From the IMG/VR virus record IMGVR_UViG_3300030098_000739, positions 616-23,370 of that record: a DNA stretch of 22,755 nt; one strand, 5' to 3'. The notes under the pieces were generated by a model. That model saw only the letters and a list, made by a program, of their open reading frames with translations. It was not told the origin of the DNA and ran no database searches. The translations under genes and the position numbers were made by a program. The stretch is from a virus. Shown in pieces: positions 2,489 through 22,755 of the stretch; position 1 is the stretch's first letter; each line of letters opens with the position of its first letter.

Positions 2489-3334
2489 TTATACCACCTT
2501 GTCTAGCCATGTTTCCACATTACCATTTCCTGAGATTTCTGTCCATGTATCGCCAGTATGAGTGATTGGAGTCCATGTATCACCGCTATGTGTTATCTGC
2601 ACCCACGAATCTCCTGTGTGTGTAATTTGTGTCCAAGTCTCAACTGTTCCTGTATCAGGGTCAATCCGCACCCATAATATCTCACCAGGGGTGGTTTGTA
2701 CAAATGAGAAAATAATTTCTGCTGTACCAAGAAGAGTTTTGTTCGCAGCAACGGTCTGAATGAACGAAAAGTCCATTGACGCACTGTCAAGCCTTACACG
2801 AGCAGGAACAGTGGTTTGAGTGAAGTTAAAGTTCAGCGTAGAGCTTGCAGGAGATATTCTTGAACCAGTGGTAGTCTGGGTAAAGTTAAAATCTTGTGTT
2901 GATACTCCAGATGCCACTTTTACAGGAACTGTGGTCTGGGTAAAATTAAAGTCTTGCGTTGATACCCCAGACGTCACTTTTATAGCGTCCGATGTTTGAT
3001 CAAACTGTGATATGACCGTTCCGCTTGCGGTAAGAATAGCACCCTGAACTGTTGTTTGCGTGAAAGCAAACTCTATGTCTGCAACCCCCACCATAATTCC
3101 AGAAGCAATATTCGTCTTAGTTGCCGTGCCAATCATGTGGGACACTGCGGAGAATGTCCCGTTGGCTGCGCTGGTTTGCGTGAAGTTGAAATCTAATGTG
3201 GCAGATTCGGGGCGAATGCGAGTTTGGGTGGTGGTTTGCGTAAAGTTAAAGTCTAAGCTGGCTGAAGCCTCAACTATAGATTCTGTCTGACCAACCGAAA
3301 TCGGTACTTCTGAAATGGAAAATGCGCCGATCAT
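2489..3334 (-). CDS. repeat-rich fibre-type protein with F-x-F-T-Q-T-T repeats and C-terminal Trp repeats
   Basis: Residues about 25-235 hold nine recognisable units spaced about 20 residues apart, each centred on a strand such as 'LDFNFTQTT', 'IEFAFTQTT' or 'MDFSFIQT'. The C-terminal 55 residues switch to a second repeat of about 10-11 residues: 'WTQITHTGDS', 'WVQITHSGDT', 'WTPITHTGDT', then 'WTEISGNG'. Such regular beta-rich repeats fit a shaft or fibrous adhesin. The gene lies between the 80-residue gene and another fibre-like gene. The start at 3334 has only a weak upstream purine stretch (AGGATAAAGACGG). I do not recognise a named family. A fibre role is inference; a host-exposed decoration protein is the alternative. 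Confidence 0.6.
   Translation of the reverse strand: MIGAFSISEVPISVGQTESIVEASASLDFNFTQTTTQTRIRPESATLDFNFTQTSAANGTFSAVSHMIGTATKTNIASGIMVGVADIEFAFTQTTVQGAILTASGTVISQFDQTSDAIKVTSGVSTQDFNFTQTTVPVKVASGVSTQDFNFTQTTTGSRISPASSTLNFNFTQTTVPARVRLDSASMDFSFIQTVAANKTLLGTAEIIFSFVQTTPGEILWVRIDPDTGTVETWTQITHTGDSWVQITHSGDTWTPITHTGDTWTEISGNGNVETWLDKVV
2881..3000 (-). repeat. two adjacent 60-bp repeat units inside the repeat protein gene
   Basis: The segments 2881-2940 and 2941-3000 align without gaps. In the first 42 bases they differ at six positions (offsets 5, 11, 17, 26, 32, 34). Five of the six fall on third codon positions of the minus-strand frame; the sixth exchanges Ala and Thr. Both encode a unit with 'STQDFNFTQTT'. 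The rest of the gene holds more diverged copies of the same 20-codon period. Confidence 0.85.
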
Positions 3335-3616: not shown

Positions 3617-6076
3617 TTAATCTCCTTCTAATTCGGTAATCTTTGCCTGTAAACTTTCAACTTTTGCGCTTAATTCTTGAACAGCTTTAACCAAAATTGG
3701 GTAAGTATTCATAGGCGTAGCTTCTAATTTTTCAGGATTTGAATAATCAACTAATCTTGTTCTATTTGTAGAACCGAAAGTCATTTCAACTTCATGTAGC
3801 TCTTGAGCTATGAAGCCTACTTCTTTTCGTCCATGCCAAGTTCCATCGCGCTTATTCCAAGTGAAATTAACAGGTCTTAACGCTTTGATAAAGTCCAAAC
3901 CTAAATCAGTGTCTTCTATAGCTGTTTTATCACGTTCATCGGACAAGGAAGTTATGGAGGTTTGCTGACACCGCAGTGTCGCCACACTAGAATTTCCTAA
4001 CGTAATTTCATTTGAAACGCTTGTAGAAGAAGGAACTGCGCCTGCACCAATACAAGTAAGATTACTGCCACTATGCGCGGTTGTGTTGTCCTGATTTCCT
4101 ACACAAGTAATATTATCTCCTGAATAGTTATAGGCCGAGCGATAACCAATAGCGACTTGATTGTCTCCGTTTTGATTATTGTACCCCGCAGTTTGCCCTA
4201 GATATACACAATAATTTGCACCTAAAAGATTATATCCTGCGGCAGTTCCAATGACTACGTTTCGTACACCTGTTGTGTACTGACCAGTCATACACTCAGT
4301 CCCAATGGTTACATTAAAATCCCCTGTTCCAGATTTGTAATAGGCTCTATACCCTATCCCAACATTATAATTTCCATTAGTTCCGCTATTAAGCTCTCCA
4401 GCCTGATAACCAATCATTACGCCGTAATCGCCATTGGACTCTGCCTGATATCCCACGCACACATTACCCGTAGCAGTTGTTAGCTGTAAATCTGCGCCAC
4501 GCCCTACTAAAGTATTATTATCACCCGTTGTTACGACTTCACCGGCGGAATAACCAATTGCTACGTTGCCCTCCATGCCGTTATTAGCAGAGGCACTGTA
4601 TAACGAATAACTACCTACGGCTGTGTTATAATTTCCTGCTTCTCTACCACTACGATATCCTAGTACAACATTATGAGAAGACGTCCCTACGTCACGAAGG
4701 GCTTCACCACCAATGCCTATGTTGCTGTCACCAGTTGTTGCGTTGTAAGCAGTTCTATACCCACCTAAATATACGTTTTGTGTGCCACCGCCGTTTGCGC
4801 TAGGACTTGAATCTGTTTGATACCCCACAGAAAAAGAATAGTCTCCTCCCTCGTATCCAGCTTGATATCCTATAGCTATGCGATGAAAGGCATTGTAGTT
4901 ATAACCTGCCTGCCGTCCTATACCTATGCTGTAATCTTGTGATGTTATTCCTCTGTTAGCGTCGTATCCTACTGAAACATTGTAATCACCCTGTACTATG
5001 TTTCTTCCAGCATACGATCCCATACCAGCGTTGCCTGTGCCAGTTGTGTTTTCATAACCACTATCATATCCCATGTAGTTATTGTGCGCCCCACTGGTCG
5101 TATCTCTAAGTGAACCTTTTCCTATACCGTGATTGTATGACCCAGTGCCTCCAGTTGATGTAGAATATTGTGGCCCTGTTTCTGAGCCTATGTAAACATT
5201 GTAACCCCCTGAAGTTACGTTTTGACCCGCTTTGTGTCCTACAGCAACATTATCAACACTAGTTGTTTTCATCAAAGAGTAGTTACCTACCGCTACATTA
5301 TGGTATCCAATAAGAGCCTCGGATAAACTAAAAGCACCTACTGCTACATTTCCTGTCGGAGTAACTTGTGTGGAAGCAAACTTATTTAAAGACATAGCAC
5401 CAATTGCAATATTAGGTGTAGCGCCTTGATAGTCTGCGCGTTGATTTTTTAATGCACCTGGGCCAATTCTAATATTGGCAAATTGAGAATCATTTCCACT
5501 AATAGCGGAGGACATTAAATTCACAAGACCGCCAAAACTCTCTTCCGGCAGTGTGACAAAAATATCCTTGGAACCAGCACCCCAGTTTACAAATCCATCT
5601 GTAAAAGTAAGAGCATCGTTATCTGCAAAAGTTCCTGGCTCTCCAGTGGAGTTGTTTGCTTGACTATCTGAACTTACAACTAAATTGTTTTGATCGGTGA
5701 CTGACGCAACAACCATAGGGTAATCATTTATACTACTACCTCTAATTCGCATTCCTGCAACTATTGTTCCGCTGTTGCCATCGACCACTAAATCGGTGCT
5801 ATTTTGCACCGCTCCATTTGCATTAGCCGTTGCTGTCGTAGTGTTACTGCTTTTTAAAACTAATTCTCTAGATAAAGTTGTTCCAGAAGCGGTGTATTTA
5901 CCAATCCCTATTTCAAAATCAGTGCCGTCAGTACAACAATAGTAACAATAATTACCATCACCAACTTCAGCAAAGCTATCAAAACCAGTAACCGCACCAG
6001 CCAAAGTATATGTGCCTGTGCCAGTTGTCGTGGTGGTTTCTTTTACCCTATCTGCAAGAACAAAATTTTGAGTCAC
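3617..6076 (-). CDS. tail fibre/spike with YadA-like beta-roll repeats and C-terminal S74 intramolecular chaperone
   Basis: The 819-residue product begins with a module ('[20 protein letters not shown]' onward) typical of phage fibre N-termini. Residues about 190-700 carry many short repeats of the type 'NVAVGxxSL', 'YNxxIGYxAG' and 'GNYNxxVG', as in trimeric YadA-like heads. The last 108 residues are an intramolecular chaperone of the endosialidase/S74 peptidase type. It opens with 'SDERDK' near residue 712, followed by 'LRPVNFTWN' and 'GFIAQEL', and ends in a coiled coil. In that family the Ser of the SD pair and the nearby Lys drive self-cleavage after trimer folding. The start is GTG at 6076, two bases after the preceding stop, with only a weak GAAG upstream. 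An odd 'YCYYCC' cluster lies near residues 43-48. Confidence 0.88.
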
Positions 6077-9067: not shown

Positions 9068-9744
9068 CACTCTTCCTCATTGTAAAGGTTATCAAATATC
9101 CTATTCACATCTAGTGTATAGTCTAAATCACTTTTTGAATAGTGTACATGTTGAGAAGGCTTAAAGTGTGGCGCACCTTCGCCTGTCTCAAACCAAGCAG
9201 GGTGTGTAACCCTTACACGATTATTGGGCAAGGCAACAATGTTTCCTGTCCATTCACCAGCATCAAGAAGTTGCAAAACATGACTTTGCTTATGTTGCGC
9301 TGGGTCATCTGCTATTTCGGACTCGGAGTAATCTACTGTAAACAGGTACTTTGCAGGAAAGAACTCACTGTCTATTTTAGCCAACCAAGGGCAGGGCGTA
9401 GCTCGGTCTATCACATAAACAGCGTGATTATGCGATGAACAATCCCAAGGTTGAGCATCATATGTGTTCATAGGTTCAGGCCATTCCTCTAAAGGTATAT
9501 CAGCAACTAGAGCGGTTATGGGCATCCTAGCCCACATTGCACCTCCATGTACCGTATCTTCCTCTTCACCTTCTGCTTCACTTCCAGTAAATATAACTTG
9601 GAAACTCAGACATCTGTTAGGCATGGACGTTACGCCAACGACCATCGCGTGCAAAAACTCACCATGATAGTCCTCATGGTTATGAGTATACTCGCGCCGC
9701 ACCCATGCCTTAAAGTAGGGAACGTTGCTATATAAATATGGCAT
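9067..9744 (-). CDS. conserved marine phage protein of unknown function, 225 aa
   Basis: The start 'MPYLYSNVPYFKAWVRREY' and later 'GEFLHAMVVGVTSMPNRCL', 'GAMWARMPITALVAD', 'QPWDCSSHN', 'KYLFTVDYS', 'HKQSHVLQLLDAGEWTGN' and 'LPNNRVRVTHPAWF' match a protein I recognise from many uncultured marine phage genomes, where its function is not known. It is a soluble mixed alpha/beta protein rich in Trp, His and aromatic residues, with no signal peptide. It overlaps both neighbours (TAATG with the 73-residue gene's stop region, TGATG into the connector gene). An assembly or minor virion role is likely from its location; nothing catalytic can be seen. Confidence 0.7.
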   Translation of the reverse strand: MPYLYSNVPYFKAWVRREYTHNHEDYHGEFLHAMVVGVTSMPNRCLSFQVIFTGSEAEGEEEDTVHGGAMWARMPITALVADIPLEEWPEPMNTYDAQPWDCSSHNHAVYVIDRATPCPWLAKIDSEFFPAKYLFTVDYSESEIADDPAQHKQSHVLQLLDAGEWTGNIVALPNNRVRVTHPAWFETGEGAPHFKPSQHVHYSKSDLDYTLDVNRIFDNLYNEEE

Positions 9745-9965
9745 TAGGCTTTAGATACTTTGTATCCTAGCTTTTTAGCAGCGGCACGAAGTTGTGCAAC
9801 AGTCATCTTTTTGCCACCAGTAGAACCGCCTTTTTTCATCATCCGCATCTTTTTGCCGCCCGTTGCGCCGCCTTTAGCCATTCTTCTGACTTTACCACCA
9901 GCACGGTAGCCTTTTTTCTTCATTACTTTACCACCAGCACGGTAGCCTTTTTTCTTCATTGCCAT
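9744..9965 (-). CDS. tiny Lys/Gly-rich protein built of repeats, 73 aa
   Basis: The protein starts Met-Ala, then has the 12-residue unit 'MKKKGYRAGGKV' twice, identical also at DNA level, then two looser units ('MAKGGATGGKKMRM', 'MKKGGSTGGKKM'). It ends in 'TVAQLRAAAKKLGYKVSKA', which resembles a SAP/Rho-N-type helical tail. It is strongly basic. The start at 9965 has AAGGAGG upstream, next to the TAA of the preceding gene. Met codons at the head of each unit could serve as internal starts. It is the last member of a run of basic mini-proteins. Nucleic-acid or packaged-DNA binding is a guess from charge; the function is unknown. Confidence 0.65.
   Translation of the reverse strand: MAMKKKGYRAGGKVMKKKGYRAGGKVRRMAKGGATGGKKMRMMKKGGSTGGKKMTVAQLRAAAKKLGYKVSKA
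9889..9960 (-). repeat. perfect 36-bp tandem duplication
   Basis: The bases 9889-9924 and 9925-9960 are identical. The period of 36 keeps the reading frame and duplicates the 12-residue unit 'MKKKGYRAGGKV' at the N-terminus of the 73-residue protein. Absence of any difference, even at wobble positions, points to recent slippage or unequal exchange. Confidence 0.95.
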
Positions 9966-9975
9966 AATTACCTCC

Positions 9976-10356
9976 TTATGACTGTGTTACTGCGCCCTTT
10001 GTGCGCTTTCTACGGTTAGACATTATCACACCGCAACCTCTTGCAACAGCGGTTCCTGGAATCTTTTTACCTCTAAATTTACGTTTAGAAGTTGTTTCAA
10101 CTACACCGCCTGAATTAAGGTTACGAACCTTTGCTCTTTTAGTGTTAGCAACTACTGTTTGACCTTTACTACCTGCTTTTTTCTTTTTACGAGCAGTTTT
10201 TGCACGTTCTTGTTTTGAAAGACTTTGAGCTTTTTTGCGCGGCAAACACCTGTCAGGGTTCTTCTTATCTTTAGACGTACCACATTTACCCTTAATGCTT
10301 CCATCAGAGCCAATGCGAACCCAGTCCTGTTTTAGCCATTCTTTAAGCTCACCCAT
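9976..10356 (-). CDS. basic conserved phage protein with Cys motif, 126 aa
   Basis: The N-terminal half has 'LKEWLKQDWVRIGSDGSIKG' followed by 'KCGTSKDKKNPDRCLPRKKA', 'SLSKQERAKTARKKKKAGSK' and 'GQTVV'. I recognise this pattern from many large phages and some other viruses, without a known function. The two Cys residues 13 apart could bind metal or form a disulfide. The C-terminal half has 'NSGGVVETTSKRKFRGKKIP' and 'ARGCGVIMSNRRKRTKG', which share the GG-x-V and RGCG-x-V pieces with the protein at 15811-16149. It is strongly basic. Its ATG overlaps the stop of the upstream gene (TAATG). DNA or RNA binding is inferred from charge only. Confidence 0.7.
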   Translation of the reverse strand: MGELKEWLKQDWVRIGSDGSIKGKCGTSKDKKNPDRCLPRKKAQSLSKQERAKTARKKKKAGSKGQTVVANTKRAKVRNLNSGGVVETTSKRKFRGKKIPGTAVARGCGVIMSNRRKRTKGAVTQS

Positions 10357-10580
10357 TACTTGCCCTTTCTTTTACCGCCCTTAGACTTCTTGGCATAGTT
10401 TGGGTCTTTACAATACTTTGATGCAGCAAGATTTGCGTATGCGCTTGGGTATGTATCAAATGTGCGCTTTGCCCAAGCCTTACCCTCTGGACATATTTTG
10501 CTGCCCTTAGACTTTTTAGAAACCTTACCACCTTTTTTATAATAGGTGAGTCCTTTTGGTGTACCGCTACGCTTTTGCAT
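10356..10580 (-). CDS. basic small protein with CPEGKxWAKRxFDxYPSAYAN motif, 74 aa
   Basis: The core 'CPEGKAWAKRTFDTYPSAYA' with a second Cys in 'ASKYCKD' is a conserved motif I have seen in small proteins of many phages; no function is known to me. Lys-rich tails flank it: 'YYKKGGKVSKKSKG' before and 'AKKSKGGKRKGK' after. The 'KGGKV' piece echoes the repeat in the 73-residue protein. The start at 10580 lies 14 bases inside the preceding 43-codon gene. The Cys pair is 27 residues apart and could bind metal. A role in DNA condensation, packaging or host takeover would fit the charge, but none is shown. Confidence 0.7.
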   Translation of the reverse strand: MQKRSGTPKGLTYYKKGGKVSKKSKGSKICPEGKAWAKRTFDTYPSAYANLAASKYCKDPNYAKKSKGGKRKGK

Positions 10581-12192: not shown

Positions 12193-13104
12193 TTATGCGC
12201 CTGGTGAACCAAACACACAACGAGGGTCTGAGAACCCGAAGCTATAACGCTCACGAGCCTTAAACCGCATGTTTCCAGTATCAAAGTCTGCTTCCATCTG
12301 TGTTGATAAAGGCACACGTTCAAAATGAAGGAAACCACGCGGAGCATCTGTCAACAAGAAGAAAGCATCCGTGTCTGTAAGGAAGTCGTTGATGGCATAA
12401 CCATCAGGCAACATTCCCATAGAACGAAGTGCATTTATGTCGTTGTCAGCAGTCCCCACACGAAGATTTGAAACCAACAGACGCTCGGCTACAAACTGTA
12501 GCTGACGAGGTACAATAAGTTTCAATCCGCGTAAAGCAACCCTCATGCCACGCTCGTCAACAAAACCAGCGATGTTGATAAGAGCGTCTTCCAAAGAAGT
12601 TTCGTTCAAATCAGCAGCAGTTGATGGTTCGTTGGCAAATGTGCCACCGTTTGTCAGGGGATGAGAAGCATCACACAAGGCAACACCGTCACCGCCAGCA
12701 TTTGCGCCAGCACTAAAAGCATTGTTTAAGATAGATGCAGCTTTAACCTGCTTTGTGTGCGCCATTGAACGAGCAAGAGCACGCGTGTAGCGACTTGACA
12801 GACGATCATAAAGATTGTCCTCAACAGCCTCTTCAGTAATGCTGAAAGCCAGTGCAATGGTTTCGTGGTTGTACCGAGCAGTAAATGCTTCATTGGCATC
12901 GTCAAAACTAACCGCAGAACCCTCTGCTTTAGTTGGTGCTGAACCAAACCCTGATAGCATTACCTCCTCTTCAAATGCACGATCTGAAGACTCGGTGGTG
13001 AAAATTTCGGCGTGCTGGTTTTCATACCTGTCATACTCCATTCCAAACAGAGCATTTAGGCCAGGCTCCAGCTCTTTCGCCAGTTGTGCGCGAGAAATAG
13101 CCAT
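12193..13104 (-). CDS. major capsid protein (HK97-fold, Mu gpT-like family), 303 aa
   Basis: The protein has the usual length and marks of a family of phage major head proteins: 'YDRYENQHAEIFTTESSDRA', 'EEEVMLSGFG', 'FSITEEAVEDNLYDRL', 'YTRALARSMAHTKQVKAASI' then 'LNNAF', 'LCDASHPL', and a C-terminal strand region 'FKARERYSFGFSDPRCVFGS'. It forms the icosahedral shell. No protease gene or long N-terminal delta domain is visible; a separate scaffold gene lies upstream. The start at 13104 has AAGGAGG 8-9 bases upstream. A strong terminator follows the gene, which fits its need for high, separately controlled expression. Confidence 0.85.
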   Translation of the reverse strand: MAISRAQLAKELEPGLNALFGMEYDRYENQHAEIFTTESSDRAFEEEVMLSGFGSAPTKAEGSAVSFDDANEAFTARYNHETIALAFSITEEAVEDNLYDRLSSRYTRALARSMAHTKQVKAASILNNAFSAGANAGGDGVALCDASHPLTNGGTFANEPSTAADLNETSLEDALINIAGFVDERGMRVALRGLKLIVPRQLQFVAERLLVSNLRVGTADNDINALRSMGMLPDGYAINDFLTDTDAFFLLTDAPRGFLHFERVPLSTQMEADFDTGNMRFKARERYSFGFSDPRCVFGSPGA

Positions 13105-14247: not shown

Positions 14248-15144
14248 TTAGTCCTTTACATACTTAGCGTATTCTTCAAGTGGAACACCAAGTTTTTTAG
14301 CTATAGCTACCTGTGAAGGTGACAACTTGACGGTCCTGCGCCCCTGTTTTGTACTGCGAGATGCGGAGGTAGAAGCAGCGGCGACCTTTTGACCTCCCTC
14401 GTTTTCTTTCGATCCCAACTCTTTCGGGAACCGTTCCCTAAGACGAGAGTCTAATTGAGTATAGTACTCATCTTCTGTCCCGTCAAACCCTTCAGTTATT
14501 AATTGCCTATCTATGACATATGCGGCTTGGGTCATAATCTCGTCATCACCAAACCATTCATTCTTTTCTGCCCACTTTTGCGCCTTCGGGTCTGGAGCTG
14601 CCGTCTGCGGTGCAGCACTGGGTTGAACCTGATTATCAGGGGCGGGGGCTGTGACTGTTGCGTCTTCTTCTTGTCGTTGTTTTGCAAGTCTGTGCCTCTC
14701 TTGTTCTATGGCAATCTTTGATAACGCCTGTTGCGCATCAAACATTTTTTCAACATCGCCACGGTCATGAGCGTCTTTATAAGCCGCTTTAGCCTGTGAC
14801 AGTTGACTTTCAATTCGTGTGCCATACTCAGTAATAAACCCACTATCAAGATTTTTAAGACGAGACTGTAGTTGTTCGTTCTCTTCTTTGAGCTTTTCAG
14901 CAAGACGAGTTGCCTCGTCTTTGTCTCGCTCTGCAAACCTGTACTTTTCAGTTAGCTTTTTAATACGTTTTTGAACACCCTTACTATAGTTATCCAGTTC
15001 ACCATCAGATGAAGTTGTAGTATCGCTAACTTCAACATCATCCGAAACATCAGTTTCCGAAACAACTTTTTTAGGCTCGTCATCAAGAGTAACTTCGACA
15101 TTCTCTTCTTCCACGACCTGTGCTTCAGCTTCAGCTTCTGCCAT
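14248..15144 (-). CDS. capsid scaffolding protein, 298 aa
   Basis: The N-terminal 60 residues are very acidic (Glu/Asp/Val). Residues about 60-155 form a long charged helix or coiled coil ('YSKGVQKRIKKLTEKYRFAE', 'LAEKLKEENEQLQSRLKN'). A Pro/Ala/Gln linker follows, and the C-terminus is a basic stretch then a short helix ('LSPSQVAIAKKLGVPLEEYA'), like the capsid-binding end of phage scaffolds. I chose ATG 15144: AAGGAG stands six bases before it, whereas the ATG six codons upstream lies inside the end of the co-chaperonin gene with no ribosome site. The place just before the capsid genes agrees with the assignment. Confidence 0.78.
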   Translation of the reverse strand: MAEAEAEAQVVEEENVEVTLDDEPKKVVSETDVSDDVEVSDTTTSSDGELDNYSKGVQKRIKKLTEKYRFAERDKDEATRLAEKLKEENEQLQSRLKNLDSGFITEYGTRIESQLSQAKAAYKDAHDRGDVEKMFDAQQALSKIAIEQERHRLAKQRQEEDATVTAPAPDNQVQPSAAPQTAAPDPKAQKWAEKNEWFGDDEIMTQAAYVIDRQLITEGFDGTEDEYYTQLDSRLRERFPKELGSKENEGGQKVAAASTSASRSTKQGRRTVKLSPSQVAIAKKLGVPLEEYAKYVKD

Positions 15145-15154
15145 CTCATTCTCC

Positions 15155-15616
15155 TTAGACATGCTTTACATCATCTGGTTCAAGTATTGTCGCGATAACC
15201 TCATCATCATTGATTATACGCACTTCACCACCATCAATCTTAAATCTAGAACCAGCGTATCTGCCAATGCATACCCACTGACCCTCCTCACACCAAGGCT
15301 TTGGTTTCTCACCAAACTTGCCAGGGTCTTGATAGGCCAAAGGCCCTAGTTTTAAGACATACGCAACAACGGTGGCTAATGCCTCGCGTTCACGCGCTTG
15401 ATCTGGAAGGTAAATACCACCGTCTGTTTTAGCCTTGCCAGCGTAAGGCATAACAAGGATTCGCCAACCTGTTGGCTGCGGTAGTCGCTCTGTTAAGGAT
15501 TTATCTATTAAACTGGGGTCAAGAACCCTATCTGTTTGTTCAACATAAGCCTCTTTGGCAGAGGGTTTGTCTTTTGCCTGCGCGATGTGATCAGGAACGT
15601 ATAAAGTCTTCGGCAT
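15155..15616 (-). CDS. phage GroES-like co-chaperonin (cpn10), 153 aa
   Basis: Residues about 48-147 follow the cpn10 fold: 'PTGWRILVMPYAGKAKTDGG' then 'IYLPD', 'ATVVAYVLKLGP', 'EEGQWVCIGRYAGSRFKI' and 'VRIINDDEVIATILE'. Residues 59-78 are the mobile loop, with Ile68-Tyr69-Leu70 in the place of the hydrophobic tripeptide that docks on GroEL. A longer insert (residues 90-110, 'GPLAYQDPGKFGEKPKPWCE') lies where GroES has its roof loop, and the first 45 residues are an extra N-terminal extension. In T4 the analogous gp31 replaces host GroES to fold the capsid protein. Its position before scaffold and capsid supports the same task here. No GroEL gene is present, so host GroEL would be used. Confidence 0.85.
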   Translation of the reverse strand: MPKTLYVPDHIAQAKDKPSAKEAYVEQTDRVLDPSLIDKSLTERLPQPTGWRILVMPYAGKAKTDGGIYLPDQAREREALATVVAYVLKLGPLAYQDPGKFGEKPKPWCEEGQWVCIGRYAGSRFKIDGGEVRIINDDEVIATILEPDDVKHV

Positions 15617-15810: not shown

Positions 15811-16149
15811 TTAAAATGTTCCTGCAAACTTTTTGCCACGAACTACGGCACCACAACCTCGGCTCATGCCAGAGGCTTCTACACCGCCGCCAGCACGAAA
15901 AGTCTTTACTTTTTCTGGCCTTTCTTTGAAAAGATCCGATTCTGCAATCTCTCTTACATCATCATCATCTGAACCGGCAAGTTCTTCCAACTCTATAATT
16001 CTTGGCTCTTTGCTTTCAACTTCTCCACCTGCATCAAACTTAACGATGCCGCCAGATGCCTTGCGCAATGCCTTGAAATCTTCCCCAGTAATCTTGTCTC
16101 TGGGTTCAGCCGCACGAGCAATCTTCATTTGTTTTTCTGTTAACGCCAT
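15811..16149 (-). CDS. small conserved protein with GGxVE and RGCGAV C-terminal motif, 112 aa
   Basis: The N-terminus is helical ('TEKQMKIARAAEPRDKITGE'). Two 'GG' pieces follow ('KFDAGGEVES', 'FRAGGGVEAS'), separated by a very acidic stretch with four Asp in a row. The end is 'SRGCGAVVRGKKFAGTF'. The RGCG-x-V piece also occurs in the 126-residue basic protein, and the end 'KFAGTF' is like 'NFKGIF' and 'NFKGVF' at the ends of two small proteins near the portal gene. I know similar C-termini from small proteins of marine phages, without a function. The start at 16149 has TAGGAG nine bases upstream. Confidence 0.68.
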   Translation of the reverse strand: MALTEKQMKIARAAEPRDKITGEDFKALRKASGGIVKFDAGGEVESKEPRIIELEELAGSDDDDVREIAESDLFKERPEKVKTFRAGGGVEASGMSRGCGAVVRGKKFAGTF

Positions 16150-18011: not shown

Positions 18012-18016
18012 CTCCC
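18012..18016 (-). promoter_or_regulatory. ribosome-binding site for the ATT-initiated gene
   Basis: GGGAG on the minus strand, overlapping the last base of the portal's TAG stop and eight bases before ATT 18003. No ATG, GTG or TTG lies in frame at a fitting distance, so the site argues for an unusual start codon. Confidence 0.6.
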
Positions 18017-20499
18017 TAGCCACGCCTCATCGCCATTTCTCGCTGGGTTTGAATGCGCTCTCTGTTTACATCCGCCCTATCTTCTGCGATCTCCTCTTGG
18101 AGTTCGATACGCGCCGCGTCAGTCATGGCTCTTTGTTGGAGTTTCTGACGTTCTAAGTCCAACTCAGCAGCATCCTGTTGCGCTCTGCGCTGGGATTCTG
18201 CGGCCTTAATAGCAAGTTCTTGTTCTCTAATAGCCACAAGCGGGTCTTGCTGTCCTTGTGCAGGAGCAAGCAGTTGAATTATTTCCTGAGTAAACTGCGC
18301 TTCGTATTGCGCTACTCTGGACTCAATAGTTGCTTCATCCATCATCTGGGACTCTTGCATGGCTTGCTGTGCCACCATTGGGTCAACCGCTCCCATCTGT
18401 GCCGCCAACATGGCTTGCTGTGCTTGAGCCTGTTGTTGTTGTACTTCCTGCATCACAGTTAAACGTGCTTTCATAGACACATGATCTTGTAGATGAGCTA
18501 TGAATATAGCATAAATATTCGGGCTTGCGGAGACAATCGGCAGTTTCATAAACAAGATATGCGCCTGAATATGAGCGTCATGGTCTTGCTCTTGGAAAGC
18601 ATTCACAGTCTCGCCCTGCAAAGCCTTGGCGTTCTCTATGCTTGGGCTTGTTGGCTTTGGCTCTGGTTTTGGAGGCAGTATCTCATCAATGTTCTGCACT
18701 TCCAATGCCTGATACATTCTCTTGTACGCGGCATGCAGATTGTGAATCTGCGGATTAGACTGTGCCAACTGTAGTTGTGTCTGTGCTAGTGTAACACGCT
18801 GTGACATCGAGAAGATGTTCGGGTCAGAGACTGGCAGAACGTCTACACGCCCATCAAAGTCCTGCGCCTTTATCTCAGATGGTGCGCCAGCTACCTCATA
18901 TGGGTACACAGGCGGCAGGTTTATAGACAATATTCTTGCAAGTAACCGAAACTCGTTTCTCTGTGCGTAGTGAAGACGCTTGTGTATAGCAGACATAACC
19001 TTCATGCCGCGCTCAAGCAGAGCAACAGTTGTGCCCACGGGCATGTCACCGCGTTGTCCACCTTCACCTAGTTGCTGGTCTGCAATAGAAACAAACCTGC
19101 GTCCGCCCTCAATCAAACTACCCAGCAAGGACGCTAGTGTGCCTGACGGCTCCTTGAACGGCAGAGGAATGATAGAGTTACGGATGTCACCACCTGGTGC
19201 GTCAATATCGCGAAACTCTCCAGGGGCTAACGGTTCGTCATCGTTACGAATCCTGATACCGCGTGCTTTGAAACCAGACGGTAGATTGGCAAGTGTGCCT
19301 GCATCTATCAACTGACGAAGAATGCTAGTCGCTGCGCGGCCTAATCCGCCAATCATGTGAATTAGGCCAAAGCCATAGAAACCTAGACCAGGTAGGAACT
19401 TGTAATGCACAAAATACTGACGCTTGATTTTGGCTGGGTCGCCTTGGTCGTAGTTCCTGATGATTGACAAAATCTCACCAGAACCGTGGTCTAGCGTTAC
19501 AATGTAAGGCAGTTTGATACCTGTTGGCACGCCATCTGGACCTGCGTCCTCAAAACCCTCAAGGTCTAGGTCAACGTGAAACTCAAGAATGGTGTGCGTA
19601 TCATCCTTATATCCACGGCTTACGCCCTCTATTTCGTCCACCTTATCCTTAACGATATCATCCATTTCATCGTCTGCGGATATCTCTACATCTCTATAAA
19701 CACCTGCAACCTGTAGTTTGCGAACCTGATTGTCATCCATTCGCAGTACATGCGTAACACGGGGCGAAGTGGCTAAATCAGTAGCAGAGTATGGCACAAC
19801 CAAGTCTTCGGCTGGTACAAAGGCAGATACAGCACGGTTTTTGGACTGGTCAAAGTATACTTTCTTGAATGTAGAACCAGACAAGGGCAGATAGAACAAC
19901 ATCTGGTCTGTGTCAGGGTCAAACTCCTCCATGACCTCAGTAATCTGATAGTTCATGAAGTTCTTAACACGGCTTGCCTGCGCTTCTTTTTCAGCCGTCT
20001 TTGAACCTATAACCTGTGTTTTTACAGGACCGCCAGCAGGCAGTAGTTCCTTGTAAGACTGCGCCTGAAACTGTGTGACAGATTCAGCAATAAGAGGATG
20101 AGTTACACCAGATGCACCCTCAAACGGCTGTGTGCGCTCCTGATACTTGATGCCAAGAAGGTCTAAACCTTTTGTGTATGCCTCTTTCCACTCTTCTCTT
20201 GATTCCTTGTCGTCTTCATAAGCGGCACGCAAATCGCTGGAAATCTCACCAAGAACACCGTCATCAATGACTTCTGCCAAGTTGGCATCATGGTTGTACG
20301 GTTCGGCCTCGACAGCCATACCATCGCCGTCTTCAAGTCCGCCCATAAGAGCCTGTATCATGGCACTGCCATCAGGCTGTTGCATGACCTCCGCGCCACC
20401 AGCAAAGTCCTGTGGTTGCGGAACTTCTACGCTCATTCCCTCTGGAGCTTCAATACCAGAGTCCGTCAAGCTGCCCATAGGCTGTGGAGGTATCGCCAT
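18016..20499 (-). CDS. portal protein (long, P22/T7-like type), 827 aa
   Basis: The portal forms the dodecameric channel through which DNA enters the head. Family marks are 'SSDLRAAYEDDKESREEWKE' then 'AYTKGLDLLG', 'PFEGASGVTHPLIAESVTQF' then 'QAQSYKELLP', 'IRNDDEPLAPGEFRDIDAPG', 'LPFKEPSGTLASLLGSLIEG', and 'QLGEGGQRGDMPVGTTVALL'. The first 60 residues are a Gly/Pro/acidic extension. From about residue 685 a Gln/Ala/Met-rich part is followed by a long charged coiled coil ending 'QTQREMAMRRG', likely the barrel or crown helix. It is longer than typical portals of 500-700 residues. The start at 20499 overlaps the upstream TAA and has AAGGAG eight bases before it. TerL is three genes upstream, the usual order. 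Confidence 0.85.
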   Translation of the reverse strand: MAIPPQPMGSLTDSGIEAPEGMSVEVPQPQDFAGGAEVMQQPDGSAMIQALMGGLEDGDGMAVEAEPYNHDANLAEVIDDGVLGEISSDLRAAYEDDKESREEWKEAYTKGLDLLGIKYQERTQPFEGASGVTHPLIAESVTQFQAQSYKELLPAGGPVKTQVIGSKTAEKEAQASRVKNFMNYQITEVMEEFDPDTDQMLFYLPLSGSTFKKVYFDQSKNRAVSAFVPAEDLVVPYSATDLATSPRVTHVLRMDDNQVRKLQVAGVYRDVEISADDEMDDIVKDKVDEIEGVSRGYKDDTHTILEFHVDLDLEGFEDAGPDGVPTGIKLPYIVTLDHGSGEILSIIRNYDQGDPAKIKRQYFVHYKFLPGLGFYGFGLIHMIGGLGRAATSILRQLIDAGTLANLPSGFKARGIRIRNDDEPLAPGEFRDIDAPGGDIRNSIIPLPFKEPSGTLASLLGSLIEGGRRFVSIADQQLGEGGQRGDMPVGTTVALLERGMKVMSAIHKRLHYAQRNEFRLLARILSINLPPVYPYEVAGAPSEIKAQDFDGRVDVLPVSDPNIFSMSQRVTLAQTQLQLAQSNPQIHNLHAAYKRMYQALEVQNIDEILPPKPEPKPTSPSIENAKALQGETVNAFQEQDHDAHIQAHILFMKLPIVSASPNIYAIFIAHLQDHVSMKARLTVMQEVQQQQAQAQQAMLAAQMGAVDPMVAQQAMQESQMMDEATIESRVAQYEAQFTQEIIQLLAPAQGQQDPLVAIREQELAIKAAESQRRAQQDAAELDLERQKLQQRAMTDAARIELQEEIAEDRADVNRERIQTQREMAMRRG

Positions 20500-20642
20500 T
20501 ACTTAGTCTCCTTGCTACCTTTGCCTGTCTTTTTGGTAGGAGTTACTTTTTTAACCTTGATAGGCTTTTTCATGTAAATGCCTTTGGTGTACTCATTCAG
20601 GATGTGCGCACCAAGGTCATATTTGAAAGGATCGCTGGACAT
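20499..20642 (-). CDS. 47-aa protein between C-tagged gene and portal gene
   Basis: My translation from ATG 20642 gives 'MSSDPFKYDLGAHILNEYTK', then 'GIYMKKPIKVKKVTPTKKTG', then 'KGSKETK' and TAA. The ATG overlaps the TGA of the upstream gene (TGATG) with AAAGGAG seven bases before it, and the TAA overlaps the portal's ATG, so coupling on both sides supports a real gene. The N-terminal half ('LGAHILNEYTKGIYM') resembles short conserved stretches in phage packaging regions, and the second half is Lys/Thr-rich and probably disordered. Function unknown. Confidence 0.65.
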   Translation of the reverse strand: MSSDPFKYDLGAHILNEYTKGIYMKKPIKVKKVTPTKKTGKGSKETK

Positions 20643-20667
20643 CAGAAAACTCCTTTAAAATTGTCTA
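20640..20667 (-). repeat. 28-bp junction repeat, copy 1
   Basis: Matches 20882-20909 at 27 of 28 bases. It covers the last six codons of the 80-residue gene ('DNFKGVF' end), its TGA, the overlapping next ATG, and the AAAGGAG ribosome site for that next gene. Confidence 0.95.
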
Positions 20668-20884
20668 AATTAACTACACCGCCGTTACGAAACTCATAAA
20701 ACAAACCTGGACTATCTATGCCGATTGTAAAAACTTGGATATCCCCTGTTTTGCGCCCTTCTCTGAGGTCAGCTTTATATCCCGCACCTTTTAAAATTTT
20801 TTGTGTCTGTCGTGCAGTAATTTTACCTTGTGCATAGTCAGATAAAGCATCTTGAACTCGTTGACTGTATTTATCTTCAGCCAT
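20642..20884 (-). CDS. small protein with GGVVNLDNFKGVF C-terminus, 80 aa
   Basis: The first half is helical ('EDKYSQRVQDALSDYAQGKI' then 'TARQTQKILKGAGYKADLRE'), and the second half is strand-like ('GDIQVFTIGID', 'GLFYEFRNGG'). The last 13 residues, 'GGVVNLDNFKGVF', match the end of the next gene upstream ('GGSVNIDNFKGIF'), though the rest of the two proteins is not clearly alike. The start at 20884 is coupled to the upstream stop by TGATG, with AAAGGAA before it. I do not recognise a family. The segment 'TARQTQKILKGAGYK' weakly resembles a SAP-like helix pair. Confidence 0.68.
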   Translation of the reverse strand: MAEDKYSQRVQDALSDYAQGKITARQTQKILKGAGYKADLREGRKTGDIQVFTIGIDSPGLFYEFRNGGVVNLDNFKGVF

Positions 20885-20909
20885 CAGAAAATTCCTTTAA
20901 AATTGTCTA
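20882..20909 (-). repeat. 28-bp junction repeat, copy 2
   Basis: Second copy of the junction repeat (27 of 28 identical to 20640-20667), at the end of the 68-residue gene. The single difference changes Val to Ile in the tag and AAAGGAG to AAAGGAA in the ribosome site. Confidence 0.95.
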
Positions 20910-21090
20910 TGTTTACACTGCCGCCTTCAGCCAAGCCTTTAATGCCCTTTTTTTTCAATAACCTTCTAACTTTAGCTGGACTCATGTTTTCTGTGTCCAT
21001 GCCTAAAATTTCATCTGCTCCTCGTTTTTCACCAGCCCTCAAAAGGTCATCTGCTAACTTGTTTGAAGCCTTTTCATCATCTACACTCAT
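20884..21090 (-). CDS. small protein with GGSVNIDNFKGIF C-terminus, 68 aa
   Basis: The protein is charged and helical ('DDEKASNKLADDLLRAGEKR' then 'GADEILGMD', 'SPAKVRRLLKKKGIKGLAEG') and ends in 'GGSVNIDNFKGIF'. The start is ATG 21090, which overlaps the terminase TGA (TGATG) and has AAGGAG eight bases upstream, formed by the terminase's own Lys-Glu codons; a TTG just upstream is rejected. The helical segment near residues 37-53 could be a small SAP-like nucleic-acid binding motif. Directly after TerL and two genes before the portal, a packaging accessory role is possible but not shown. Confidence 0.66.
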   Translation of the reverse strand: MSVDDEKASNKLADDLLRAGEKRGADEILGMDTENMSPAKVRRLLKKKGIKGLAEGGSVNIDNFKGIF

Positions 21091-22550
21091 CAATAATACT
21101 CCTTCTTCCTAGGATACCAATCGGTGTTGTCGTTTTCGCCTTCTAGTTCAAGAAAGCCGCCCTGCCTAAACCGTATCAAAGCCATCGTCATGCTATCAAC
21201 AAAATCGTCATGCTCTCCATGTGGAAATGCAAGACATTCTTCGATAACCTCCTCAGAAAACTTCTGTTCAGGTGCCCACACCATCCCTGCTTCAAACAAA
21301 GGAGCAACTGTGTGCATACGCGTTATCTTATCACGACCTTTGCTTGGTGTATAGTTCATCACAGGTATACCTGCTGCACGCAACTCATCAGTCAAAGGCT
21401 GACCCGTGGCCTTCGCCTCGATAATCACCATGTCTGGTTCCCAATATTCGTACTCTTCTGCCGCCACAACCTTGAGTTCTGGGAAGTTCCAGCGGCCTCT
21501 GTGAGCATCCATCAAGATGACGTTGTCGGCTCCTGTCTCTTCGTTTGTGAAAACGCCCCATGTCGTAATAGCAGAGTAGTCGGCAGTTTCTTTTTTGCTG
21601 AACGCCGTGTCATATGATTGAATGATGTACTTTACAGGCGGGATTTCTTCTTTCTCCCATATCATCCACCACTCTTTCTTGACGATTGCGCCCTCTGTAG
21701 CCGTAGGGTTTTGTTGCCACTGCGCATTCCATTTGGCTAAAGGCAAAGATGCCTTGACCTTCACCAGATCATCCTTGTTCCAGAACTCAGGCCATAGGGG
21801 CTTGTCAGAAGGTAGGATGGCAGGAAACTCTATGACCTCCCACTCGTCCGCCATTGTGTCTGTGCCTTGCATTTTTATGACCTGACCCGTCAAATCCTTC
21901 ATGCCCCAGCGTGTCATAACGATAATTATCGCTCCACCAGGCTGTAAACGCTGTCGAGGACCTGATGTATACCACTCAAACGCGTTATCAAAGGCTGTAG
22001 ACGACAAAGCGTCCTGTTCCGAGTGCGGATCGTCAATAATCAGCAAATCTGCACCGCGTCCAGTCATTGCAGCACCCACACCAGCGGCAAAATACTCTCC
22101 ACCAACGGATGTCCCCCACCTTCCAGCGGCTTTATCGTCTGATTTTAGCTTTGTATCAGGAAAAACAGTGCAATAATCGGGCGTATCAATCAAATCTCGC
22201 ACTTTTCTGCCAAATCTGACCGCTAATTCGGTGTTATGAGTGGCCTGAATGATTTTTAGCTTCGGATTTCGCCCCAAAAACCACGCTGGCATCAAATATG
22301 ACGCAAATTCTGACTTAGAATGACGCGGTGGCATGTTCACAATCAGCCTTTTTAGCTTGCCTTGCGCCACTTCTTCTAGTTTTTCAGCGATTATGCGGTG
22401 GTGACGACCCTCAATGAAGCCATCATACACATGATGCACAAACGGCATGAACTCTTCACGAGCTTGTTCTCGTATGTGCAGCTTTACATTCTGTTGTTGC
22501 AGAGCAAGTATCTCACGAGCTACTTCCTCTGGTATTGTTTCAAGACTCAT
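21090..22550 (-). CDS. terL: terminase large subunit, 486 aa
   Basis: This is the DNA-packaging motor ATPase and nuclease. The Walker A-type loop is 'PPRHSKSE' (residues 74-81), Walker B 'LLIIDD' (169-174) followed by 'PHSEQDA', and the coupling region has 'IIIVMTRWGMKDL'. The nuclease domain (RNase H-like) shows Asp314 in 'QSYDTAFSKKETADYS', Glu378 in 'VIIEAKATG', and 'HDDFVD' (447-452). Length is normal for the family. I use ATG 22550; a TTG seven codons earlier is possible but neither has a good ribosome site, and the ATG overlaps the end of the upstream gene by 11 bases, so coupling is likely. No small terminase is recognised in the window. Confidence 0.93.
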   Translation of the reverse strand: MSLETIPEEVAREILALQQQNVKLHIREQAREEFMPFVHHVYDGFIEGRHHRIIAEKLEEVAQGKLKRLIVNMPPRHSKSEFASYLMPAWFLGRNPKLKIIQATHNTELAVRFGRKVRDLIDTPDYCTVFPDTKLKSDDKAAGRWGTSVGGEYFAAGVGAAMTGRGADLLIIDDPHSEQDALSSTAFDNAFEWYTSGPRQRLQPGGAIIIVMTRWGMKDLTGQVIKMQGTDTMADEWEVIEFPAILPSDKPLWPEFWNKDDLVKVKASLPLAKWNAQWQQNPTATEGAIVKKEWWMIWEKEEIPPVKYIIQSYDTAFSKKETADYSAITTWGVFTNEETGADNVILMDAHRGRWNFPELKVVAAEEYEYWEPDMVIIEAKATGQPLTDELRAAGIPVMNYTPSKGRDKITRMHTVAPLFEAGMVWAPEQKFSEEVIEECLAFPHGEHDDFVDSMTMALIRFRQGGFLELEGENDNTDWYPRKKEYY

Positions 22551-22755
22551 TTCTATATGGCTGAAGAACAAACGGACTTATATCGCCAACCTGTTGTGGT
22601 GTATAGAAGGGTGAGAAGCGGGTATCACCCACACCTGAACCCGTTTGAAAACCTCCCCCTTCTTCTTCACCCGTTGGCTGGCACACACCGTCAACCATCT
22701 TATAACCAGCAGGACATGGATCTGTCGGAGACTTCTGTGCAGTAGCAGAACCGCC
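22540..22755 (-). CDS. C-terminal end of an unknown upstream protein
   Basis: The minus frame from the window edge gives 71 residues before TGA 22542-22540. Pieces are 'SPTDPCPAGYKMVDGVCQPT', 'GEEEGGGFQTGSGVGDTRFS' and 'PFYTPQQVGDISPFVLQPYR'. The 'CPAGY-x-MVDGVC' piece is a short two-Cys motif that I recall as a repeated element in Pro-rich marine phage proteins. The rest is Gly/Pro-rich and likely extended. The gene is open at the window edge, so its size and start are unknown. It overlaps the terminase start by 11 bases, which places it in the same operon. Confidence 0.65.
   Translation of the reverse strand, partial: GGSATAQKSPTDPCPAGYKMVDGVCQPTGEEEGGGFQTGSGVGDTRFSPFYTPQQVGDISPFVLQPYRNES

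Follow-up and report, generated by a model that had tools for sequence, protein, structure and literature searches.

Why should two neighboring small viral proteins that have little similarity over most of their length end in the same short peptide? The question arose from a sequence-only reading of a 22,755-nucleotide stretch of DNA (hereafter the window), which makes up most of a 25.6-kb virus record. The window carries a podovirus structural module, and its kin at the DNA level are the pelagiphages HTVC023P and HTVC027P. On the minus strand the gene order is terL, genes for 68-, 80- and 47-aa proteins, portal and, later, a 112-aa gene, a groES-like gene, a scaffold-like gene and capsid, with the following features.

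21090-22571, minus strand: terL (terminase large subunit); its end RKKEYY encodes an AAGGAG Shine-Dalgarno sequence, with a TGATG junction
20884-21090, minus strand: 68-aa tagged protein (MSVDDEKASNKLADDLLRAGEKRGADEILGM...), directly after terL, ending EGGSVNIDNFKGIF
20887-20925, minus strand: tag GGSVNIDNFKGIF of the 68-aa protein
20893-20898, minus strand: AAAGGA Shine-Dalgarno sequence in the tag codons (K-G) of the 68-aa gene, serving the 80-aa gene; TGATG overlap
20642-20884, minus strand: 80-aa tagged protein (MAEDKYSQRVQDALSDYAQG...), ending NGGVVNLDNFKGVF; third position of a tagged-type gene in the terL-portal interval
20645-20683, minus strand: tag GGVVNLDNFKGVF of the 80-aa protein
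20650-20656, minus strand: AAAGGAG Shine-Dalgarno sequence in the tag codons (K-G-V) of the 80-aa gene, serving the gene at 20499-20642, whose ATG overlaps the stop (TGATG)
20499-20642, minus strand: 47-aa gene that follows the tagged pair and is itself untagged; an AAGGAG Shine-Dalgarno sequence comes, without the tag, from its end KGSKETK
18016-20499, minus strand: portal protein, downstream of the tagged cluster; position conserved in relatives
15811-16149, minus strand: 112-aa tagged protein between portal and groES, with the long-form tag RGCGAVVRGKKFAGTF
15814-15897, minus strand: long-form tail RAGGGVEASGMSRGCGAVVRGKKFAGTF of the 112-aa protein
15155-15616, minus strand: groES-like gene, from its position and the annotation of the HTVC023P counterpart
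14248-15162, minus strand: scaffold-like gene, from its position and the annotation of the HTVC023P counterpart
12193-13104, minus strand: capsid (Pfam Phage_capsid_4)

Analysis of the window confirmed that the adjacent 68-aa and 80-aa proteins have a common end, GG-x-V-N-x-D-N-F-K-G-[VI]-F. The 112-aa protein, named as a third carrier of a related end, does terminate in such a form and has a homologue in locus L159 (13635-13970) that ends RGCGAVLKGKKFSGTF. The 126-aa protein at 9976-10356 had also been counted among the carriers. It contains GGVVE and RGCGVIM internally, as described, but it ends in TKGAVTQS and was dropped from the set. The portal was matched by its counterpart in the Roseobacter phages CRP-901/902, which is termed "head to tail connecting protein". 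Elsewhere on the minus strand of the window there is a long fiber-like protein with many VAVGxxAG-type repeats (3617-6076), the end of which we take to resemble an intramolecular chaperone, and a protein composed of [LQE]DFNFTQTT repeats with near-repeats of TGDTWTxITH at its end (2489-3334). A very basic small protein with KKGYRAGGKV repeats (9744-9965) adjoins small basic proteins of the phrog_27331 and phrog_23735 types.

Form, extent and modularity of the tag

The consensus of the tag comprises GG-x-[VI], a Gly/Arg/Lys-rich linker (often RGxGxAxxG) and [KNR]-F-[K,S,A]-G-[VIT]-[FYS] at the extreme C-terminus. The sequence-only reading had proposed a motif search with a count of families, and we carried this out on fetched loci, mostly marine viral, using the expression GG.[VILMA].{0,28}[FY][KRSATQN]G..$. 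This search identified 117 tagged ORFs among 11,318 distinct ORFs, in a sample that was partly fetched by tag search and is hence tag-enriched, compared with 1 of 12,445 when the same DNA was read backwards. The terL-centered sample, in the collection of which the tag played no part, contributed 26 tagged ORFs by itself. A strict DNA pattern for GGKFKG[IVM]xx followed by a stop matched 59 viral contigs, nearly all at genuine ORF ends, with apparent chance matches in L060, L061 and L069. The same pattern gave 10 stretches across 84,980 bacterial and archaeal genomes; in two of them TGG stands in place of the stop, and the remaining eight appear to be chance matches. Positions that the search left free were also conserved, with R at -9 in 84/117 ORFs and F, S, Y or K at -1 in 114/117. 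The observation is thus real and broader than first stated.

The tagged proteins are small (median length 95 aa) and strongly basic, with a median pI of 10.2 compared with 8.0 for untagged coupled ORFs of 45-200 aa, a comparison set that may include some chance ORFs. The suggestion that related ends occur in other marine phages was borne out, and the carriers include gp51 of the cultured pelagiphage HTVC023P, accession QGZ17680.1, which ends GGGAAVRGMGFKGVF. No credible relative was found among cultured phages by tblastn with the 68-aa and 80-aa proteins or with a 64-aa tagged protein. Searches of the same phages with bare tag peptides (21 and 23 aa) gave no match, which says little given that a low-complexity filter is a possible cause. 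No significant Pfam family was identified for the tagged proteins tested, AlphaFold models of two window proteins were of low confidence throughout (mean pLDDT 55 and 58, from a shallow 3 and 5 sequences), and no description of the tag was found in the literature searched. A 37-aa untagged, very basic ORF (MNVSRETLKKKKPKGKLVVNRFSKILAPGKKRTTRI..) lies within or after tagged genes in two loci (L093 5097-5210 and L145 5195-5308).

The N-terminal parts of the tagged ORFs fell into 52 clusters (BLAST E<1e-4, GG segments trimmed), which match different PHROGs or none. That the tagged proteins are one family, homologous over the whole length, is barely credible and at this sensitivity refuted, even though some tagged proteins have N-domains in common and single-linkage clustering with internal GG segments kept merged 37 proteins. 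Full-length homology, which had been set against the idea of a tag at the outset, was not found; nor was the ending absent from close relatives, which carry it.

The window proteins themselves illustrate this modularity. Residues 1-72 of the 80-aa protein are 85-86% identical to longer proteins in L006 and L010, with divergence from the GG onwards; these relatives run about 60 residues further and have their own tags, IALRGNNFKGVF and GRGGKFKGIS. The 68-aa protein is likewise related to 191-193-aa proteins that end RGMGAALRGGKFSGVK, again diverging from the GG, and to proteins of L015 and L016 with the ends SLDNFKGSF and GTENFKGIF. The 191-193-aa relatives (L010 2023-2601 and L006 278-850) are mosaic-like, with segments separated by GG, and have an internal AKFKGF piece ahead of the final tag.

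Two N-domains were found both with and without the tail. The QAVAIALSKAGK domain (MPLKKGKSxKxISENIxTEMxAGKPQKQAVAIALSKAGK) matched 455 cultured phage records of other groups and was untailed in 5/5 of those phages inspected; in PB1, MyoSmar and phiEap-2 it lies near head genes, and marine versions add GG.V..RFSPIARPQRFxGxF. A weak match (E 0.01) linked this domain (L133 6708-6944 and relatives) to the N-terminus of phrog_3778, a family of head maturation proteases, and for this reason the domain may be one of head assembly. A profile of the QAVAIAL domain also aligned to a designed TAL effector over 18 residues only, a hit that we attribute to chance. As for the phrog_27331 domain, the copies in the window (10356-10580) and in HTVC027P have no tail, and those of HTVC023P gp51 and L024 have one. 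Taken together, about 50 N-terminal clusters, one N-domain with different tails and N-domains with and without the tag support the view, put forward in the sequence-only reading, that the tag is an exchangeable C-terminal module. Tag similarity across families within one genome was not above chance (p = 0.115) and so gives no indication that the tags are co-adapted to a partner specific to each genome.

The location of tagged genes was analyzed in 80 terL loci picked by terL similarity, regardless of the tag. In 63 of these terL abuts portal, and 17 have inserted genes. By manual count, the strict tag was present in 16 of the 24 genes inserted between terL and portal, and five more had a variant end (e.g. 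GGKVRIF or GGIVSLLGKD). The end of the insert in L084 and L085 (GGGKVRIF) keeps the GG piece and has lost FKGxF; the same holds for GGIVS[LI]LGKD in L128 and L150, where the next start no longer overlaps. Relatives in which portal adjoins terL mostly carry no tagged insert, which makes the system dispensable in them. Where a tagged gene of the tag-selected loci could be assigned a position, this was in most cases the terL-portal interval, the place right after portal or the stretch from portal to groES. HTVC023P gp51 is an exception, its gene being close to the one for an endolysin-like peptidase M15 (gp49) and distant from terL and portal. Genes for terL 89-91% identical to that of the window flank quite different tagged genes (L077-L082), and the gene set therefore turns over fast while the tail stays.

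Tag codons and the ribosome-binding site of the next gene

The sequence-only reading had overlooked a second role of the tag codons, which also form the Shine-Dalgarno sequence of the overlapping next gene. The last codons of the 68-aa and 80-aa genes are TTT AAA GGA GTT/ATT TTC TGA, the next ATG overlaps the stop (TGATG), and the AAAGGA in each serves as the Shine-Dalgarno sequence of the following gene at normal spacing. In tagged genes the FKG codons usually contain AAAGGA or AAGGGG, with the next start on the stop codon (TRATG). This raises the question of whether the common peptide is just a common ribosome-binding site. The FKG glycine codon was GGA/GGG in 66 and GGC/GGT in 14 of the tagged genes with a TRATG overlap, compared with 3 and 7 in tagged genes without overlap and 62 and 359 for other glycine codons in the same tails (P about 1e-32). 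The codons are therefore tuned for a Shine-Dalgarno sequence where one is needed.

Overlap of stop and start with an intragenic Shine-Dalgarno sequence has been shown experimentally to couple translation (PMC6728339). The tagged junctions resemble such termination-reinitiation pairs (TRATG/ATGA) in having the start on the stop codon and a Shine-Dalgarno sequence inside the end of the upstream gene, and their translational dependence is predicted. They differ in that the terminal peptide of ordinary pairs varies, whereas tagged junctions keep one peptide, even without coupling.

Could the peptide be a by-product of translational coupling, such that a Shine-Dalgarno sequence near an overlapping start happens to encode FKGxF? 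The restriction of the GGA/GGG bias to TRATG overlaps would fit this, as would the position of most FKG tags exactly at TRATG junctions and the coincidence of the drifted L128 and L150 tags with a lost start overlap. However, among 362 TRATG junctions, those bearing a Shine-Dalgarno sequence ended in [FY]xG.. in only 1/118 cases without GG.V compared with 28/118 with GG.V, many of the other 90 GG.V junctions being terL ends, whose sequence has GGFI-like stretches. The tag also persists with neither Shine-Dalgarno sequence nor overlap, mostly with GGC/GGT codons, in L024, L029, L030, L067, L083, the 112-aa gene of the window and the KFSGTY group; L029 and L067 have RGMGAAT[KQ]GGKFKGVF, TAA, then AAATAAACG, and L083 has KKFAGTY, TTTGCTGGTACTTAT. 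Neighboring genes give Shine-Dalgarno sequences with other peptides (RKKEYY, KGSKETK), and GG.V and the R at -9 fall outside the Shine-Dalgarno sequence. Coupling as the sole cause of the common end is thus distinctly unlikely and, on these comparisons, largely refuted. Since the end is kept without a Shine-Dalgarno sequence, is near-absent at comparable junctions and varies in its codons, the sequences indicate that the peptide is constrained as a peptide and that the same bases carry a second signal.

Two further explanations were weighed against a peptide that docks. Short similar DNA at the 3' end (GGNGGN...AARTTYAARGGR...TRATG) might act as a recombination joint that drives swaps of small genes, with the peptide as a passenger; the 68-aa and 80-aa proteins do lose their homology to relatives at GG, near-identical terL genes have entirely different tagged neighbors, and the register in which a gene end joins the next start is always the same. 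Against this, tags with the same last eight residues in different families have on average 58% of codons in common, only 5% of such pairs are identical at all eight codons, and both AGY and TCN codons are used for terminal Ser. These differences, together with the variable spacing of the motif, point to selection acting on the peptide and not to recent copying of DNA, and a joint would leave the tag unexplained where no gene follows closely; we regard this explanation as rather unlikely. Similarly doubtful is a nucleic-acid-binding or DNA-condensing tail of RGG-like type, by which the proteins would coat head DNA or act on nucleic acid of the cell. The high pI, a mean tail charge of about +3 in 16 residues and the recurrence of RGG and RGMG elements are in keeping with it, and binding to nucleic acid would be just as feasible for a Gly/Lys/Arg-rich tail. 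The most constant part, however, is the terminal F-x-G-x-[FYS], which is typical of recognition of a terminal carboxylate and not of charge alone, and the short form of the window, NxDNFKG, carries little positive charge.

A candidate docking tag and its known counterparts

From position, composition and analogy we infer that the tail is a docking tag that recruits variable basic proteins to a common head or portal partner, a proposal to which we give about an even chance. The routing of tagged proteins to the capsid or portal, which the sequence-only reading had raised, is plausible as the leading reading because most of the tagged genes with an assigned position flank terL, portal or groES and the tagged proteins are strongly basic. 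The tail is attached to dozens of apparently unrelated small basic accessory proteins encoded in the head-assembly region of pelagiphage-like podoviruses, and under the docking proposal it would bind each variable protein to one common partner in head assembly (portal, scaffold or tail nozzle), with the docking site most likely at or near the portal. The basic bodies would be packaged into the virion together with the DNA, and their ejection into the host is possible. A tagged gene could be inserted at the terL/portal junction or behind another tagged gene with the following translation unbroken.

The closest likeness is to the capsid-targeting sequence (CTS) of T4. T-even internal proteins are diverse and have only this sequence as a common element, and the T4 CTS alone routes proteins into the prohead (PMC3012670, PMC9026906). 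Like the CTS of IPI, IPII and IPIII, the tag is a constant short peptide on diverse small accessory proteins at variable loci, with one tail type on about 50 N-terminal clusters. In contrast, the CTS is N-terminal, about 10 residues long and cleaved by the gp21 prohead protease, while the tag is at the extreme C-terminus with no cleavage known, and no protease was identified; the tag codons also double as a ribosome-binding site, unlike those of the CTS. By analogy, the tag would work like a targeting sequence, but it is not a member of the T4 CTS family, because the CTS is N-terminal.

The genes for T7 gp7.3 and gp6.7 lie just upstream of the portal gene, and tagged genes were likewise found immediately upstream of portal. 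These T7 products are small virion proteins ejected with the core, and they resemble the tagged proteins in size; T7 has one each of gp7.3 and gp6.7, whereas the tagged set consists of changing families with one common end. In gp7.3 the nozzle anchors a C-terminal loop (residues 84-98), and the basic N-terminus follows the DNA (PMC11784390). In a profile search of PDB sequences, the two window families (profiles A2 and A3) gave no significant match.

Combining these elements, we tentatively propose a dual-coding cassette, possible though short of probable, in which a C-terminal docking tag would load changing small basic proteins into virions of marine podoviruses and its codons would also form the following gene's ribosome-binding site. 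New cargo could then be inserted between terL and portal already tagged, with portal expression undisturbed. If this is true, tag codons that serve as a ribosome-binding site would clearly exemplify how a translation signal and a terminal peptide can evolve as a single module, and the tag would offer a natural C-terminal means of loading cargo. SAR11/pelagiphage-type phages would have a general address label that sends variable small proteins to the virion, a counterpart of the T4 internal-protein system; any metagenomic protein bearing the tag would be predictable as virion cargo, and dozens of unannotated small gene families would gain a function at once.
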